Assembly (NCBI RefSeq): GCF_958301595.1
Contig: NZ_CATQJU010000001.1
Coordinates: 1,426,001-1,490,000, forward strand
Direction of reading: 5' to 3'
Source of the DNA: Porphyromonas vaginalis
GTDB lineage: Bacteria > Bacteroidota > Bacteroidia > Bacteroidales > Porphyromonadaceae
DNA length: 64,000 bases
This document shows, one piece after another, positions 2,260 to 8,253 of the stretch. The position numbers and the translations under genes were made by a program. The first letter of the stretch is position 1, and each line of letters starts with the position of its first letter. The notes beneath the pieces are model-generated. The model saw nothing but the letters and a program-made list of their open reading frames with translations. It was not told the origin of the DNA and ran no database searches.

Positions 2260-3723
2260 ATGCAAATAACAGATCTAACTCACATGCCCATCTGGCAGCA
2301 CTTCTACGAAATTACCAAGATCCCTCGTCCCTCCAAGCACGAGGAGCAGATACTGGCTTTCCTTAAGAAGTTTGCCGAGGAGCATAACCTAGACTATGCG
2401 CAGGATAAGACAGGCAACATCGTCATCCGCAAGGGTGCTACGCCTGGCATGGAGGACCGCGAGACCATCATCCTCCAGGGTCACGTAGATATGGTCTGCG
2501 AGAAGAATAGTGACGTAGAGCATGACTTCTACAAAGATCCTATCAAGACGCAGATCACCGACGGATGGATTCACGCTGAGGGTACGACCCTAGGAGCTGA
2601 CAACGGTATTGGTGTCGCAGCAGGGCTAGCGGTCCTGACAGACCCCACCGTAGAGCATGGACCCGTCGAGTGCCTCTTCACAGTAGATGAGGAGACTGGT
2701 CTGACCGGTGCCATGGGTATCGAGCCAGGCTTCGTCCAGGGACGCATCCTCATCAACCTCGATAGTGAGGATGAGGGCGAGATGTTCATCGGTTGCGCTG
2801 GTGGTATGGGTACGATGGCATTCTTTGACTACACCACAGAGGCTACGCCTGCTGGGCAGATAGCTCTCGAGGTGAAGGTGAGTGGTCTCAAGGGTGGACA
2901 CAGCGGTGGTGACATCCATGTCGGTCTAGGCAATGCCAATAAGCTCCTCGTGCGCTACCTATATAAGGTACTTAAGGAGGTACCCGAGATGCGCCTAGCT
3001 ACGATCGATGGTGGTAACCTACACAACGCTATCGCTCGTGAGGCTAAGGCTGTCATCACGATCCCTGCCAATCGCAAGGAGAATCTAGCTATCTGGGCAA
3101 ACGAGATGGACGCTGAGTTCCGCAACGAGCTCAAGAAGGTCGATCCTAATGTCAACCTCCGTGTGGAGACAACCACAACCCCTAAGGAGGTTGTCGACAA
3201 GAAGACGGCTGACACGGTCATCCGTACACTCTACGCTTGTCCTCACGGCGTGATGGGCATGAGCCACTCACTGGAGGGGCTCGTAGAGACCTCTACCAAC
3301 CTAGCCAGTGTCAAGATGAAAGAGGGCAATGTGATCAGCATCGAGACGAGCCAGCGCAGCTCTACCGAGTCGCTCAAGGAGGATGTAGGCAATATGCTCC
3401 TTGCTCTCTTCGAGCTAGCAGGTGCACGCACAGAGGTACGTGACGGCTATCCCGGTTGGGCTCCTAACCCCGACTCTGAGATCCTAAAGGTCGCTGAGAG
3501 TACCTATCGCGAGCTCTTCGGCAAGGAGCCAAAGGTCAAGGCTATCCACGCAGGTCTTGAGTGCGGACTCTTCCTAGCGAAGTATCCTTACCTTGACATG
3601 GTATCCTTCGGTCCGACGATGCGTGACGTACACTCACCCGCAGAGCGCATGGAGGTCCAGACGGTGGAGATGTTCTGGCGTCACCTCGTAGCGATCCTCA
3701 AGAACGCTCCTAAGCGCAAGTAA
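2260..3723 (+). CDS. pepD: Aminoacyl-histidine dipeptidase (Xaa-His dipeptidase), M20 family
   Basis: Cytosolic zinc dipeptidase that splits Xaa-His and related dipeptides, fitting an amino-acid-fermenting anaerobe. It has 487 residues, the usual length. Metal and catalytic motifs are in order: LQGHVDMVCEKN (His, Asp), GADNGIGVA (bridging Asp), VDEETGLTG (catalytic Glu pair), LDSEDEGEMFIG, and a C-terminal MRDVHSPAERM region with the last zinc His. The dimerisation lid lies around residues 200-380, beginning with the GGHSGGDIH loop. A TAACTTTT sequence at 2238-2245 could be a promoter, but it would leave almost no leader. Hairpins follow the stop. Confidence 0.96.
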   Translation: MQITDLTHMPIWQHFYEITKIPRPSKHEEQILAFLKKFAEEHNLDYAQDKTGNIVIRKGATPGMEDRETIILQGHVDMVCEKNSDVEHDFYKDPIKTQITDGWIHAEGTTLGADNGIGVAAGLAVLTDPTVEHGPVECLFTVDEETGLTGAMGIEPGFVQGRILINLDSEDEGEMFIGCAGGMGTMAFFDYTTEATPAGQIALEVKVSGLKGGHSGGDIHVGLGNANKLLVRYLYKVLKEVPEMRLATIDGGNLHNAIAREAKAVITIPANRKENLAIWANEMDAEFRNELKKVDPNVNLRVETTTTPKEVVDKKTADTVIRTLYACPHGVMGMSHSLEGLVETSTNLASVKMKEGNVISIETSQRSSTESLKEDVGNMLLALFELAGARTEVRDGYPGWAPNPDSEILKVAESTYRELFGKEPKVKAIHAGLECGLFLAKYPYLDMVSFGPTMRDVHSPAERMEVQTVEMFWRHLVAILKNAPKRK

Positions 3724-3760
3724 TCATAGCTAAGGCTGCTGATCCACTAGTCAGCAGAAC

Positions 3761-3880
3761 AAAAACAACGAGAAGGCTCAGTCGCAGCGATGCGGTTGAG
3801 CCTTCTGTGCTCTAGGCATCACTCGTTGAGCATGATCGATAGCTCTTCAGCGACCACCCTGTCAAGGTTTCATTGATAGA
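3761..3880 (-). ncRNA. Candidate small RNA facing the sRNA array
   Basis: A minus-strand TACCTTTG element (3886-3893) stands about 7 nt before a stretch with no reading frame. It ends in a hairpin, AGAAGGCTCA/TGAGCCTTCT, closed further by CAACG/CGTTG and followed by TTTTT. Promoter, closing stem and U-tract within about 120 nt match the design of the plus-strand units to the right. No clear -33 element is visible. It could instead just be a bidirectional terminator with a chance promoter. Confidence 0.45.
3771..3806. terminator. Bidirectional hairpin terminator after pepD
   Basis: A 10-bp stem (AGAAGGCTCA / TGAGCCTTCT) with a further CGC/GCG pairing in the loop. The minus-strand reading is followed by CGTTGTTTTTG, a U-tract. 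A smaller hairpin, CTGCTGA/TCAGCAG, lies at 3736-3757 just after the pepD stop. Confidence 0.75.
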
Positions 3881-4015
3881 GAGTGCAAAGGTAATAAAAG
3901 AGCCCCTTGCGACTGAACTCTTGTGCCCTCAACGTCGCTCTGTAATCACCAAGCGTCTCAACACTCCATAAAGAAGAGCTTGTCAGATTCAAAGATAGTT
4001 GCTACCTTTGTGGCA

Positions 4016-4100
4016 AGAAAGAGCAGGTTCACTCGGCCTGCCTTTAATTATAGGCTATATACTGCGTTTGCAGTACGAACCCGGGGAGCTTCCTCTTTTC
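4016..4100 (+). ncRNA. sRNA unit A of the tandem array
   Basis: Promoter: TTG at 3980-3982, 20 bp, TACCTTTG at 4003-4010. The RNA is closed by a 12-bp stem with one mismatch: AAAGAG (4018-4023) with CTCTTT (4093-4098), and AGGTTC (4025-4030) with GAGCTT (4086-4091). Inside are GCCT/AGGC (4040-4055) and TACTGC-GTTT-GCAGTA (4060-4075). The closing stem runs into TTTT, so it can double as the terminator. The core GCCTTTAATTATAGGC and the following CTATATACTG are shared with unit A2, and in variant form with unit B. Confidence 0.7.
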
Positions 4101-4131
4101 CCTTTGGAATATAAACCGTATCTTTGCGGTA

Positions 4132-4202
4132 GAAGAGGTAAACACTCGAGCCGCCTTTAATTGAAGGCTATATTCTGTAATGGAACGAATTGAGGTTTAC
4201 CC
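4132..4202 (+). ncRNA. sRNA unit B of the tandem array (paralogue of A)
   Basis: TATCTTTG lies at 4119-4126; the -33 element is weak. The closing stem is GGTAAAC (4137-4143) with GTTTACC (4195-4201), extended by CTC/GAG across one bulged A. Inside, GCCTT/AAGGC (4153-4168) has the same loop bases (TAATT) as units A and A2. Sequence outside this core differs from A while the pairing layout is kept. No U-tract follows, so the transcript may continue into unit C and end at its terminator. Confidence 0.65.
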
Positions 4203-4227
4203 ATCACGCTTGCTGTAAAGGCAAGAA

Positions 4228-4305
4228 ACGACGTACATCCCAATGTGAGTCTCACCTAAACGTCGGGAACGAGGTAAGGGCGTTTGGGGTGTACGTCCTT
4301 TTTTA
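4228..4305 (+). ncRNA. sRNA unit C (or 3' half of a B-C transcript)
   Basis: Closed by a 12-bp stem: GACGTACATCCC (4230-4241) with GGGGTGTACGTC (4286-4297, one G-U), directly followed by CTTTTTT. Inside are AAACG/CGTTT (4258-4262 with 4281-4285) and GTGA-GTC-TCAC (4245-4255), giving a three-way junction. I see no TAnnTTTG element immediately upstream, so it may be transcribed from the promoter of unit B. Confidence 0.65.
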
Positions 4306-4403
4306 CAGGAGGACAGAGGCTCTTTTGCTAAGCGAAGTCACGACGACACTTATTACATCTTTGATAAGTCTGTCATTTCAAATATAATTACTACCTTTGT
4401 AGT

Positions 4404-4485
4404 GCGAGGGTGTCGTTTAATTCTCCTCTAGTTGTGGAGGAACGCCCCTTGCTCCAGGCCCAAGTGGATTACTTGGGCTTTTTTT
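4404..4485 (+). ncRNA. sRNA unit D of the tandem array, with separate terminator
   Basis: TACCTTTG lies at 4392-4399, with CTG at the -33 position 19 bp upstream. Closing stem: GCGAGGG (4404-4410) with CCCCTTGC (4445-4452, one G-U). Inner hairpin: TCCTC/GAGGA (4424-4441). This unit has its own intrinsic terminator, GCCCAAG (4458-4464) with CTTGGGC (4472-4478) and seven U residues, the clearest in the array. Confidence 0.72.
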
Positions 4486-4562
4486 GCGCCTTGGCAAGTC
4501 ACCTTGCGTCTTGCTTTGCTGGTAAGCGAGGTGCTTCAAATATAGCTACTACCATTGTGGCA

Positions 4563-4655
4563 CAGGAAGGGAAGTTATTTAGGCGATGTGCGCGAGTAAC
4601 GTCAAGCTGCCACTTCCCTGATTGTTTAGAAGCCGGGCTAAGCTCGGCTTCTTCT
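4563..4655 (+). ncRNA. sRNA unit E of the tandem array
   Basis: TACCATTG lies at 4550-4557, a one-base variant of the -7 element; the sequence just upstream (CTTCAAATATAGCTAC) resembles that before unit D. Closing stem: GGGAAGT (4569-4575) with ACTTCCC (4612-4618), perfect. It is followed by the hairpin AGAAGCCG/CGGCTTCT (4628-4652), which may terminate, although the U-tract is poor. Confidence 0.6.
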
Positions 4656-4721
4656 ATGCCACTAGCCGGATTGTTCTGCAGGAAGGCTTGTCGTTTGAAT
4701 TGTAAATAGTAACTTTGCAGA

Positions 4722-4797
4722 CAGAGAGCAATTGGTTGGAAGTCTTCCGTACGTTATAGAGCGTTATAAAGGGAAGCACTAACTAATTGCTCTTTTT
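4722..4797 (+). ncRNA. sRNA unit F of the tandem array
   Basis: TTG at 4688-4690, 19 bp, TAACTTTG at 4710-4717: a good promoter. Closing stem: AGAGCAATTGGTT (4725-4737) with AACTAATTGCTCT (4781-4793), 13 bp with one G-U and extendable by two more pairs. The inner stem is CTTCC/GGAAG (4744-4748 with 4772-4776). The closing stem runs into TTTTT, forming the terminator. Confidence 0.75.
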
Positions 4798-4877
4798 CGT
4801 TTACAGACGGGGGACGCCGTAGATTTCTATCTCATGGCGAGTTGCTCATCTGAGATATTGTCACTACCTTTGTGGCA

Positions 4878-4954
4878 AGAAGGAGGAGTTTCTGATATTA
4901 GTCTTTCCCAGGGCCGTGGAGCAGGGAGCGAGCGTTCAGAAGCCCCTCTTTTGT
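4878..4954 (+). ncRNA. sRNA unit G of the tandem array
   Basis: TACCTTTG lies at 4865-4872, followed by TGTGGCAAGAA as in unit A. The closing stem is about 16 bp with one mismatch: TTCTGA (4890-4895) with TCAGAA (4936-4941), continued by GGAGG with CCTCT and A/U pairs, ending in CTCTTTTGTT. The interior holds CCC/GGG pairings. The promoter-upstream block (TTGCTCATCTGAGATATTGTC) recurs almost identically before unit H. Confidence 0.7.
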
Positions 4955-5100
4955 TGTCTGTAGATGCGTGGTCGTTTCGTTTATTGTTATAGACTCTGCG
5001 ACTCTCATCGCAAATCTACTGAGCAGATTTACGTGTAGTTCGCTACAAGAGACGCACCCCATGTGAGACTCGCAAGGTCTAGGTCGTTGTTTTGCTCATC
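4955..5100 (+). other. Hairpin-rich stretch between sRNA units G and H
   Basis: No TAnnTTTG element and no reading frame. It holds AAATCT/AGATTT (about 5012-5029), TGTAG-TTCG-CTACA (about 5033-5046) and a short GAC/GTC hairpin. It may be a decayed or promoter-poor unit of the same array. Confidence 0.35.
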
Positions 5101-5125
5101 TCAGACATTGTCATTACCTTCGCGA

Positions 5126-5172
5126 TGTGAGGTTCGGTAAGAGATCGGGCTTGCGCCCCGTCGTTCGTCACT
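5126..5172 (+). ncRNA. sRNA unit H, possibly the 5' half of an H-A2 transcript
   Basis: TACCTTCG at 5115-5122 is a variant -7 element, preceded by a near copy of the unit G promoter region. GTGA (5126-5129) can pair with TCAC (5168-5171) around the hairpin CGGGC-TTG-CGCCCCG. No U-tract follows, and unit A2 starts within a few bases, so one transcript covering both is plausible. Confidence 0.45.
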
Positions 5173-5177
5173 CCTAA

Positions 5178-5264
5178 GAAAGAGCTAATTCACTCAGCCT
5201 GCCTTTAATTATAGGCTATATACTGCGTTTGCAGTAAGAACCTGAGGAGTTGGCTCTTCTTTTT
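5178..5264 (+). ncRNA. sRNA unit A2, close paralogue of unit A
   Basis: Shares 35-40 bases almost unchanged with unit A, including GCCTTTAATTATAGGC and the TACTGC-GTTT-GCAGTA hairpin. Its 12-bp closing stem is unbroken: AAGAGCTAATTC (5180-5191) with GAGTTGGCTCTT (5247-5258), then CTTTTT. Relative to A, one G-C pair has become A-U and the single mismatch has become C-G, as expected for a stem kept by selection. Confidence 0.7.
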
Positions 5265-5273
5265 ATCTAGGTC

Positions 5274-5371
5274 TGAGGCATCATATACAATGAACTCATT
5301 GACCTCTCTACGCCTCGCTTGTTGATCATGTGTAGCTCCTGACTGAGCGATTATGAAGCAACATCCTTGGC
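5274..5371. repeat. R2 repeat, copy a (about 95 bp)
   Basis: First of four copies of a short dispersed element that starts with a TATATAATG-like block and ends with GCGATTATAATGCGTCA-like sequence. Ends are imperfect inverted repeats (best preserved in copy c). This copy is the most diverged. It abuts R1 copy 1. Confidence 0.65.
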
Positions 5372-5379
5372 TGGACAAA

Positions 5380-5690
5380 TTCAACGCCGACCCGCAACAA
5401 TAATTTAGATCCGACTACACTTCGACACGAGACGGCATCGGGAAAAAGTGATTTCCACGTGGATATTTCGAAATCTCCACGTGGAGAATAAAAAATTCTT
5501 CGGAGGAATCAAATGAAACTTCGGAAGAATCAAATGAAACTTCGGAAGAATCAAAACGCCCCCACGTGGAAAAAGAAAAATATCCACGTGGAGATTTGAG
5601 ATTCCCCACGTGGATATTCGAGAAAGGAGGGGATCGGACAGACTTTCTCGTAAAGATATGTAAATAGAGATTAGAGGTTAGAGATTAGAG
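5380..5690. repeat. R1 repeat, copy 1: eight symmetric boxes at 21-22 bp steps
   Basis: Box centres lie at about 5458.5, 5480.5, 5502, 5523, 5544, 5565.5, 5587.5 and 5609.5. The first two and last three boxes are CCACGTGG; the middle three are TTCGGAGG/TTCGGAAG units in a 21-bp direct repeat. The left flank contains ACAATAATTTAGATC and the right flank TAAAGATATGTAAATAGAG, both conserved in the other copies. No credible protein. On the minus strand the right flank reads TATCTTTA, close to a -7 element. Confidence 0.8.
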
Positions 5691-5692
5691 AG

Positions 5693-5788
5693 CAGGGGTG
5701 ACACACATATATATAATGGACCTCATCTATCCCCTTGCTTGTCACTCATGTGTAGCTCCTAGGAGAGCGATTATAATCGTCAGCCCTC
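5693..5788. repeat. R2 repeat, copy b
   Basis: Second R2 copy, from GGGGTGAC to GTCAGCCCT, with the internal TATATAATGGACCTCATC block and the GATTATAATCGTCAGCC end. Together with copy a it brackets R1 copy 1, giving the order R2-R1-R2. Confidence 0.7.
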
Positions 5789-5877
5789 TAGGAGGCTTAT
5801 ATTTTTTAGAAACTTATTTCCTTTGCGCGGCCGTACATTTTTTTGTGCGGTGCAACAACCAAATCTATAAGACTTTT

Positions 5878-8253
5878 ATGCAACGAAATCTATTATTCCT
5901 CTACAGCCTGCTCCTTGCACTGATTCCGCTAGGTAGTGTGGCTCAGACTGCAACGAATGATGTGCTGACCTTTACGACAAGTAAGGCGGTTGGTGAAACC
6001 ATCCAAATAAACCTTCAGTACCAGGGTCAGCTCGAGATTAAGGGCCTTGAGAGTGTCCCTGCGAGCGCTCCATTTGTGTACAATACCTCAATGGTCAAGC
6101 TCACGGCACAGACTGTCACTATCAAGGGACAGCTCTCGCGCATTGCTATACACAACGACCAAAAGATAACCGGCCTCTCTGCGCCTAACCATACGACTCT
6201 GGAGGAGCTGTATTGCGTTAATAACCCTTCGCTCACAAGCCTCAACCTCTCTGGGTGTAATAAGTTGAAGTATATATCCATCCCTGGTACAGGACTTAAG
6301 AGTCAGTATCTGACTCAGTTTATAGAGTCACTCCCCAAGGTAAAGGACGGGAAGCTCAACTTCTATCGTGCAGACCAGAAGGCACCCCATGCTTACTGGA
6401 CTATTCAAGACATCCGAGATGCCAATGCTAAGGGATGGCAAGTTAACACCACTGTAGGGTCAAGTGTCTTAGAACTTTACCCAGACGAGATCACTATCGG
6501 AGTCGATCCCGCAGTCAGTGAGACGCTGAGTCTCTGCATCATCGGAGAGGGTGAAAATATCCCACTCATCTCAAATATAGAAGGAAATCCCGTCATTGAG
6601 AGCGGAGATAAATTCACTCCTTATACCGTAACGCAGAAGTCGGTCATCATCGGAGGCAATGTCAAGCTTTTCAAGGTGGAGTGGCAGAAGAACATTACCA
6701 GTATCAATCTAGGTAAGAATCGTAGCCTCACACACTTAGTCTGTACTAAAGGTAACGTCAAGGAGCTGGGACTGTCGGAGTGTTCGTCCTTGAATCTCGT
6801 AGAGTGCTACGGCAATGGCATACGAGGTGAGGCAACTACACGACTGATGTCTACACTGCCAGACCGCACCTCAGCGCAGGAGCCTGGCAAAATCTACTTC
6901 GTAGACGAAGCCTCTACTGAAGCACAAAAGAACAGCTACAGCGATACAGACCTCTTCCTCGCCAAGAGCCGTGGCTGGGTCGTCTATCGTCGGCTCTCAA
7001 GTGGCACCTTCGAAGAGATCAAGCCCACTGGTACTTCTTACGATCAGATAACCTTTACCACGGACAAGAAGGTTGGAGAGGGCTTCTTTATCGTCACAAA
7101 TCCCTCTAACCCTATAAGTGTACGTGGACTCAAGTTACTCTCTCAGAGTGAGAGTACGCCAGACAAGAATGCCATCGTCACGACACAGGATATAACGCTC
7201 GTGGGTAATGTGCTGAGTCTCGTGCTTGCAGATCAGCAGATCACCGCTTTTGAGTCAAAGGACAACAAAGAGCTTCGGTCGTTAGTTATCTCAGGTAATA
7301 AGCTGACCAAGCTGGATCTCTCTACTTTCGAAAAGCTCGAAAGTGTGGTCTGTTTCGATAATCCGTTTGATAAGGAGGGCTCCACTTTTACCTTGTCGCA
7401 CCTGCCTAATCGTACGAAAGAGGAGACACCTGGGGCTATCACCTTTGCCTCTACGGCTGAGGGCGACCTTACGCCCACATACAGCTTGGCAGACATCGCT
7501 GCTGCCAATGCACTCAACTGGAAGGTAATGCAACGTGATAACGAAGGCAAGGAGTCTGAGATCGTCCCCAAGGTCAATGTCATCACCCTCGTCACGGACA
7601 AGACTGTAGGTAGCGAAGTGACAATAGACGCAAAGCTAGTCGATGGTCGTCCAGTCAAAGTGACGGGACTATCCGTTGCTGAGATTACTGCTGCCAATGC
7701 GGCTGGCAAGTTCACCCTAACGGCACAGACTGTCACCCTCTCAGGCGATGTCTCCTCCCTAAGCATCCCCGATGGCGAGTGGACAAAGATTGAGACTACG
7801 GCAGATTACGACAAGCTCGAGTCTCTCGCTTACCCAAGGAATAAGGTGACGTCTCCTGTCCTAAAGACCCCTCGTCTCTCTATGCTGGACTGCAGCAACA
7901 ATGAAGTGAAAGCAGACCTCGTGTCGCAACTAATCGCTCAACTGCCAGACCGCTCTGCTGAAACGAACAAAGGTGAGCTACGTCTCTTCAATACCTTCAA
8001 GGGGGTAGGCGAGACCAACGAAATAACTGCCGACCACCTCAAGGCTGCTAAGGCTAAGGGCTGGCGTATCACAGACAGCAAGATGGAGATTACAGAGCAG
8101 CAACTAGCTACGGATCTCGTCCTGCGTCCCAACAGCACGGATGATACGGTATACACACTCGAGGGTATCCGCCTCTTTACCCCAGTTGACGAGCTACCTG
8201 AAGGTATCTACATCATCGGCTGTAAGAAGGTAATCATCAATCGCACGAAGTAA
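5878..8253 (+). CDS. Secreted four-module LRR-like surface protein
   Basis: Start set at 5878, where MQRNLLFLYSLLLALIPLGS gives a clear signal peptide; the open frame upstream lies in the R2 repeat. The 791-residue product has four modules of about 170-190 residues. Each opens with an (I/L)TF-TTDK-VGE type strand, continues with leucine-rich-repeat-like text (LEELYCVNNPSLTSLNLSG, LRSLVISGNKLTKLDLS) and closes with a P(D/N)RT...AKAKGW-V signature. The tail TLEGIRLFTPVDELPEG, then IYIIGCKKVIINRTK, looks like a Bacteroidales surface-sorting or anchoring end, as in internalin-like P. gingivalis proteins. Adhesion or protein binding is inferred. It is a single gene, followed by a strong terminator. 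Confidence 0.75.
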   Translation: MQRNLLFLYSLLLALIPLGSVAQTATNDVLTFTTSKAVGETIQINLQYQGQLEIKGLESVPASAPFVYNTSMVKLTAQTVTIKGQLSRIAIHNDQKITGLSAPNHTTLEELYCVNNPSLTSLNLSGCNKLKYISIPGTGLKSQYLTQFIESLPKVKDGKLNFYRADQKAPHAYWTIQDIRDANAKGWQVNTTVGSSVLELYPDEITIGVDPAVSETLSLCIIGEGENIPLISNIEGNPVIESGDKFTPYTVTQKSVIIGGNVKLFKVEWQKNITSINLGKNRSLTHLVCTKGNVKELGLSECSSLNLVECYGNGIRGEATTRLMSTLPDRTSAQEPGKIYFVDEASTEAQKNSYSDTDLFLAKSRGWVVYRRLSSGTFEEIKPTGTSYDQITFTTDKKVGEGFFIVTNPSNPISVRGLKLLSQSESTPDKNAIVTTQDITLVGNVLSLVLADQQITAFESKDNKELRSLVISGNKLTKLDLSTFEKLESVVCFDNPFDKEGSTFTLSHLPNRTKEETPGAITFASTAEGDLTPTYSLADIAAANALNWKVMQRDNEGKESEIVPKVNVITLVTDKTVGSEVTIDAKLVDGRPVKVTGLSVAEITAANAAGKFTLTAQTVTLSGDVSSLSIPDGEWTKIETTADYDKLESLAYPRNKVTSPVLKTPRLSMLDCSNNEVKADLVSQLIAQLPDRSAETNKGELRLFNTFKGVGETNEITADHLKAAKAKGWRITDSKMEITEQQLATDLVLRPNSTDDTVYTLEGIRLFTPVDELPEGIYIIGCKKVIINRTK

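Follow-up and report, generated by a model that had tools for sequence, protein, structure and literature searches.

The polymorphic MuF toxins of temperate phages are known with a small protein as immunity, also in Bacteroidales, according to the accessible parts of the sources (Jamet et al., 2017, PMC5576092; Bxa, PMC11699363). The second of these, in the part available, mentions orphan immunity (polyimmunity) loci and raises possible additional immunity proteins in MuF clusters, and the available 2017 text has 0 occurrences of 'antisense' and 'non-coding'. PBECR domains are predicted RNase tails of MuF proteins, for which the accessible portion of the paper mentions no partner RNA (Iyer et al., 2017, PMC5512222). 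Type III toxin-antitoxin systems (ToxIN, CptIN, TenpIN) are bicistronic, with the RNA upstream, a terminator in between and a repeat RNA (PMC5086642, in part), and the small RNAs (sRNAs) of the FopS type are paralogues with one common seed whose consensus is deposited in Rfam (PMC11697453, in part). In the open-licence literature we recognised no RNA immunity to MuF or polymorphic toxins; it may be in print elsewhere. Here we describe an array of small RNAs of Porphyromonas vaginalis, bounded by pepD (2260-3723) and a leucine-rich repeat (LRR)-type gene (5698-8253) in a stretch of 64,000 nt (contig NZ_CATQJU010000001.1, positions 1,426,001 to 1,490,000; in the following the window, from whose first letter all positions are counted), which is probably an orphan locus of RNA immunity against phage MuF toxins.

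Nine units were read on the forward strand and one on the reverse strand, together on eight promoters of the type TAnnTTTG. The fold z values compare each unit with dinucleotide shuffles of its sequence.

3755..3893, reverse strand: unit R, promoter 3893-3886, predicted transcript ending in a hairpin behind pepD (fold z -1.5)
4003..4100, forward strand: unit A, promoter 4003-4010, closed-stem RNA 4015-4100 (fold z -2.95), copy in Porphyromonas uenonis
4119..4207, forward strand: unit B, promoter 4119-4126, RNA 4130-4207, same family as A and C
4230..4304, forward strand: unit B2, long hairpin and terminator, shares the promoter of B (fold z -3.9), kept in P. uenonis
4392..4486, forward strand: unit D, promoter 4392-4399, RNA 4401-4486 consisting of a core and a separate terminator (fold z -4.5)
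4550..4652, forward strand: unit E, promoter 4550-4557 (one mismatch), RNA about 4563-4652, core 4590-4607
4710..4799, forward strand: unit F, promoter 4710-4717, closed-stem RNA 4720-4798 (fold z -5.7), kept in P. uenonis
4865..4953, forward strand: unit G, promoter 4865-4872, closed-stem RNA 4878-4952
5115..5175, forward strand: unit H, promoter 5115-5122 (one mismatch), short stretch ahead of C, read from sequence only
5176..5262, forward strand: unit C, closed-stem RNA with U-tract, A/B/C family (fold z -5.4)

The forward strand between 3861 and 5265 contains five exact TAnnTTTG matches (4003, 4119, 4392, 4710 and 4865), compared to a mean of 0.7 in the dinucleotide-shuffled region, where at least five were reached in 0 of 1000 shuffles. 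Two further sites with one mismatch are located at 4550 (TACCATTG) and 5115 (TACCTTCG), and the reverse-strand element at 3893-3886 is present, so that the promoter positions of the preliminary description were all found again. The reverse strand of the array carries four more exact matches (3997, 4386, 4544, 5018), three of which overlap the upstream portion of forward promoters. Units A, B, B2, C, D, E, F and G fold better than their shuffles (z -2.5 to -5.7), R does so weakly and H does not (z +0.55). Eight terminator-like sites compare with 2.0 expected (3700-5880, both strands), and the longest listed open reading frame (ORF) of the array (99 aa, 4410-4709) spans two units. The promoter and fold statistics support the tandem small structured RNAs of recurring design, mostly with their own promoter, that the preliminary description had proposed. 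Its inventory of units was right overall, except that it missed B2 as a separate unit behind B and C as lying behind H on one promoter. The units also differ in sequence, as it had stated for their closing stems, but A, B and C escaped it as one family with 35-nt cores that are 83-97% identical. That the units match no named family agrees with an Rfam search of the whole window, in which no family reached the gathering score.

BLAST matches to the array were found in 7 of 26 genomes of the genus. Porphyromonas uenonis 60-3 (G025) has a colinear array, 86-95% identical piecewise, that is without B and D and has two extra units, X1 towards its beginning and X2 as the last; the promoter of B there directly precedes B2 (by eye). 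Genome G022 retains R, X1 and X2 (by eye), and G024 has no array. Units were thus gained and lost between these relatives. Genome G001 has an insertion with a group II intron-like reverse transcriptase in the same intergenic place (L023 5560-7340; by eye). Bacteroidales bacterium KA00251 (G016) carries unit C with 97% identity over 95 nt, directly behind its promoter without an intervening H, and a copy of unit D (89% identical) at a contig end. As the pepD proteins are 63% identical, the near-identical C and D point to horizontal transfer. The neighbours of unit C in KA00251 (L021 384-9885) are defence-island-like, with a PHP/AAA ATPase, HNH, DUF4238 and weak NERD and AbiEii matches.

In KA00251 the copy of D is convergent with a Phage_Mu_F (MuF) gene and overlaps its 3' end; this gene adjoins host genes and is a phage remnant. 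The core of unit G recurs in a prophage of genome G002, Mu-like by gene order, between the MuF and a Phage_tail_S gene. This copy has its own promoter, and its closing stem differs in sequence from that of G while the complementarity is retained; the two align with a score of 201 (shuffled best: mean 100, standard deviation (SD) 11). Unit E shares a short core (18 nt, 4590-4607) with a third set of phage RNAs. A profile of two phage RNAs, L071 (the KA00251 copy) and L111, matches the window at 4401-4486 with E=1.3e-14, and a four-RNA phage profile matches unit D with E=9.5e-7; both profiles include the near-identical L071. The relatives that were found are therefore RNAs convergent behind MuF genes of phages and prophages, and a kinship with Bacteroides sRNA families, which had been suggested, is not supported, as there is no Rfam match.

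An antisense RNA behind long-tailed MuF genes is a common rule rather than two cases. From genomes and viral contigs 242 MuF loci were gathered, 32 of them without a recognisable MuF ORF and 4 truncated. Genes whose product continues for 110 aa or more beyond the MuF motif were called long-tailed (172) and the others short-tailed (34). An antisense TAnnTTTG is located 40-130 nt past the stop in 138 of the 172 long-tailed genes, compared to 2 of the 34 short-tailed genes and 25 of 929 control same-strand ORFs in the surveyed loci; in sense direction the element is in range in 6/172. The second viral set supplies 26 of the 34 short genes and both positives. By source, positives among the long tails are 17/18 (family), 15/19 (order) and 11/13 (class) for the genomes, and 65/67 (set with A1), 5/8 (first viral searches) and 25/47 (set with A2) for the viral contigs. 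The count of 138 is slightly too high, since it includes L118, which by eye looks deamidase-type with the promoter of a protein gene. Duplicate entries of a gene or phage are L080/L084, L081/L083/L086, L116/L300 and L067/L089. The survey yielded 120 distinct RNAs, and 128 after addition of eight from loci without a MuF ORF or with too little sequence. Typically the phage RNA runs from a structured core over a hairpin to a U-tract at the MuF stop or in the last codons. The isolated Elizabethkingia phage TCUEAP3 has a minor head protein, a 96-nt gap and a tail gene, with the RNA promoter and terminator antisense.

The RNA core tracks the tail subtype and not the head domain. The surveyed MuF tails form three groups. 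In Pfam (E up to 0.01) CdiA_C, a family that includes tRNA nucleases, was matched in 15 of 34 representatives of the first, whereas the other two, scanned jointly with 32 representatives, gave LPD3 (12), PBECR2 (8) and PBECR3 (3). In a comparison that leaves out pairs with near-identical MuF domains, the nearest RNA is of the same tail subtype in 59/76 cases, the nearest MuF domain in 14/76, and permuted RNAs in a mean of 3.6/76 (maximum 12 in 200 runs). Same-subtype pairs with dissimilar MuF domains (n=28) have a median RNA score of 60, against 48.5 for different-subtype pairs with similar MuF domains (n=1334). The rank correlation over all pairs is 0.09, which is low because most pairs are unrelated. 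Of the 67 RNAs in the CdiA_C-like group 63 were scored, and 62 of these have a separate terminator; one closed stem is present in 39/47 RNAs of the PBECR-like group and 7/10 of the third group.

Within the tail subtypes the core is conserved and the outer stem variable. In the X2 subtype (14 RNAs) 90.3% of the cells pair, and the covariation score is 0.249 vs 0.121 (SD 0.020) in shuffles, matched by 0/500; the count of further pair types is not above shuffles. The A/B/C family, whose structure was predicted from the same six sequences that were scored, reaches 0.207 vs 0.137 (SD 0.023), matched by 2/500 shuffles, and has 4 pairs changed on both sides with 2.9 expected (137/500 shuffles), which is unremarkable. 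Conservation of the stems by compensating changes, the lack of which the preliminary description had named as refuting, is therefore seen in part, by the covariation score and not by the other measures in both families. Covariance model R3 matches unit A with E=1.3e-32; unit A is among its members.

The slot behind the tail seems to be used by a protein gene beside some toxins and by an RNA beside others, mainly nuclease-type ones. No promoter in range was found for 34 long tails, of which 27 entered Pfam alignment A5. They matched Gln_amidase (9), PBECR2 (4), ATLF (2) and, once each, ADP-ribosyltransferase, LPD3, PBECR3 and CdiA_C. In 17 of the 34 slots a convergent ORF of at least 40 aa is present, ten of them with TAnnTTTG at most 70 nt from the start; the remaining seven may be chance ORFs. 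Among the 138 loci with an RNA promoter 31 have such an ORF, five of these with the element at most 70 nt upstream. Small convergent protein genes with TAnnTTTG near the start were seen in the slot of MuF loci that lack the RNA, namely L090, L114, L239, L254, L272, L275, L280-L282 and L291 (and L118), and these small proteins are possibly unrecognised immunity proteins. One slot protein is common to L090, L118, L254, L270, L272 and L291 and another to L114 and L280 (by eye); the tail family is shown by name only for L090 (Gln_amidase).

With the described MuF toxins these loci share the head-protein carrier, the exchangeable tails and an immunity gene next door, and deamidase-type tails here also often have a small protein gene in the slot. 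In difference to them many tails have a convergent structured RNA, and the window holds RNAs only. A small protein is not the general partner of the RNA-linked tails, judged by the 31/138 slot ORFs, downstream sense ORFs not being examined. A MuF gene with a toxin is found in the phage loci and not in the window, so that the array is at most the immunity part.

We give a probability of about three in four to the reading that the array is an orphan RNA-immunity locus, in which each unit is, or derives from, the RNA antidote to one kind of phage MuF-tail toxin, mostly RNases. It builds on the observations that unit D and the core of G recur behind MuF genes, that the arrangement there is convergent and tied to long tails, that core and subtype agree, and that MuF is absent from a genome whose relatives gain and lose units. 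In the window genome neither MuF nor CdiA_C was matched (PBECR2/3 were not searched for), and one sub-threshold LPD3 match is located in a 4,897-aa frame. Since MuF is absent, the array is not the immunity of a resident MuF toxin and reads as an orphan. The toxins would be C-terminal tails of the MuF head protein in phages of Bacteroidota, and the convergent RNA gene behind them would have a TAnnTTTG promoter of its own, a structured core specific to the tail, and a terminator placed at the last toxin codons or across them. A lysogen that makes the RNA would survive the toxin injected by incoming virions, and a cell lacking such a prophage would be protected by units that were copied without the toxin and lined up in its chromosome. 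Most likely the core would bind the incoming tail directly, as inhibitor or substrate mimic. Transcription of the units, nuclease activity of the tails, binding, neutralisation and delivery by virions are thus predicted steps, and A/B/C, F, B2, H and R are presumably units of the same kind as D and G. Over 295 Bacteroidales genomes the model of the X2 family found one strong copy (L357), in which an X2-type RNA is convergent with a free-standing tail ORF without MuF (1501-2070) in surroundings that are non-phage by eye over 3 kb. This free-standing pair indicates that toxin and RNA may also move as a module.

Several points weigh against this reading. It is drawn from sequence, and expression, binding and protection are predictions. 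The ties of window units to phage RNAs are limited to D, G and the 18-nt core of E, and for A/B/C, F, B2, H and R no phage relative was found. L111 alone does not align with unit D above shuffles, and this link was made by eye and by tail similarity. Model R1 did not recover unit E, and model R2 finds X2 in P. uenonis with E=0.0058 but misses it in G022 (E=1.5, the terminator alone). For the two MuF proteins encoded next to the D and G copies, the Pfam result is MuF only, with no nuclease in the tails, which were grouped with nuclease-like tails by blastp linkage only. Many representative tails are without any Pfam family, and LPD3 has no assigned activity. The surveyed loci are redundant and were partly picked by alignments of RNA-bearing MuF proteins, so they are not independent draws, and as RNA and tail adjoin, joint transfer alone could yield part of their coupling. 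Nuclease-type matches also occur among the 27 promoterless tails (PBECR2 4, PBECR3 1, LPD3 1, CdiA_C 1). In L116/L300, as in L073, the promoter is located at 213-237 nt, beyond the range, L155/L191 have CACCTTTG, L266 has TATATTTG just beyond the range (by eye), and in L262 no promoter-like element was seen.

Ordinary trans-acting regulatory sRNAs with a role like FopS/GibS, picked up by phages by chance, are an unlikely explanation of the units. Size, own promoters and terminators would suit bacterial sRNAs, and FopS likewise is a family of several copies, one of them also in a phage (PMC11697453, accessible part). However, FopS and GibS are described there with a shared seed in a single-stranded 5' part followed by a terminator, whereas the cores here vary by tail subtype and have no single common seed, and no Rfam family was matched at gathering score (the presence of FopS in the searched copy was not checked). 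It would also be left unexplained why the RNAs sit behind MuF genes with long tails and why they are coupled to the tail.

A type I-like antisense control, in which toxin synthesis is held down by the RNA pairing to muF mRNA at its 3' end, would explain the convergent orientation and why the RNA extends to or over the last muF codons, and we hold it for slightly less probable still. The overlap is chiefly the terminator, with the conserved core outside muF; compensating changes retain the stem of the X2 family, and beside some other toxins a protein gene occupies the slot. Unit G keeps only the core, and without the closing stem of its phage copy it could hardly pair with that muF gene. It is very improbable that the RNA serves the virion or late transcription, as packaging RNA or as a terminator ahead of the gene that follows muF. 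It does lie directly behind muF in the phage loci surveyed and ends in a terminator, but the promoter is rare behind short MuF genes (2/34), and some tails with another chemistry are accompanied by a protein gene in its place. Moreover, orphan copies persist in a MuF-less genome and the free pair of L357 stands in apparently non-phage surroundings.

If the immunity reading is right, the structured RNA would directly neutralise an RNase toxin, as in type III systems. The layout is different, as the genes are convergent with separate promoters in place of an operon, and each toxin has a single RNA unit, where type III systems have a repeat array that the toxin cuts. The phage loci are single-unit (by eye), and the window units differ from each other except A/B/C. 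The toxin families are also others (CdiA_C, PBECR), here as fusions to a phage head protein; in Pfam (E up to 0.01) none of 66 RNA-linked tails is of the ToxN/CptN/TenpN type, the matches being CdiA_C, LPD3, PBECR2, PBECR3 and seven families with 1-2 members each. Tails of the PBECR type are the same as those described before, here with a candidate partner RNA. Like polyimmunity loci, the array would cluster immunity genes without toxins, with RNAs here and proteins there.

Beyond this, it seems to us marginally better than an even bet that each RNase tail is paired with its own antidote RNA that mimics the substrate, and that bacteria collect these RNAs from phages into chromosomal arrays, as an expandable RNA memory of injected RNases. 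A hint at the toxin substrate comes from a tRNA-Tyr-like hairpin in the RNAs of one PBECR-like tail group. Hairpins of the type GGA-YUGUARY-UCC (UUC in L276) occur in five of these, and their 7-nt loop is similar to the tRNA-Tyr anticodon loop, which reads CUGUAAC in the window genome. Related loops are present in two more, and two additional gut phage records contribute one example to each of these kinds. Anticodons of this sort are sites at which colicin E5 cleaves tRNAs. Hairpins like anticodon stem-loops (GUA, also GCA and GCU) were seen in L091, L142, L198, L276, L288, L215, L253, L367 and L368. Overall, anticodon-like loops are not enriched (69/128 RNAs, 56-68 in shuffles), and therefore tRNA mimicry remains a lead.

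On the immunity reading, more than 100 distinct RNAs with cores following the tail subtype would form an RNA immunity class, which would be a new way of neutralising toxins and supply many natural RNA-protein pairs. The arrays would show bacteria building RNA-based protection from captured phage antidotes, and unnamed small RNAs next to the head genes of prophages would, as a class, find an explanation. The question bears on what such MuF tails do and how lysogens survive them.

Two kinds of repeats were observed at the borders of the array. About 100 bp upstream of the R promoter (window 3870-3990) are a dispersed repeat, 69-80% identical by BLAST, with two other sites in the window genome and copies in relatives (L002, L003, L012, L013, L017-L019). 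In L002 and L003, the two copies that were read, TAnnTTTG is retained and the downstream sequence differs. Between the array and the LRR gene a 42-nt repeat occurs twice, together with palindromic CCACGTGG tracts and 21-nt repeats (5313-5354, 5451-5618, 5733-5774). Similar sequence flanks unit C in KA00251 (L021 8019-8350), and as unit C is flanked in both genomes, repeat and unit may travel together.

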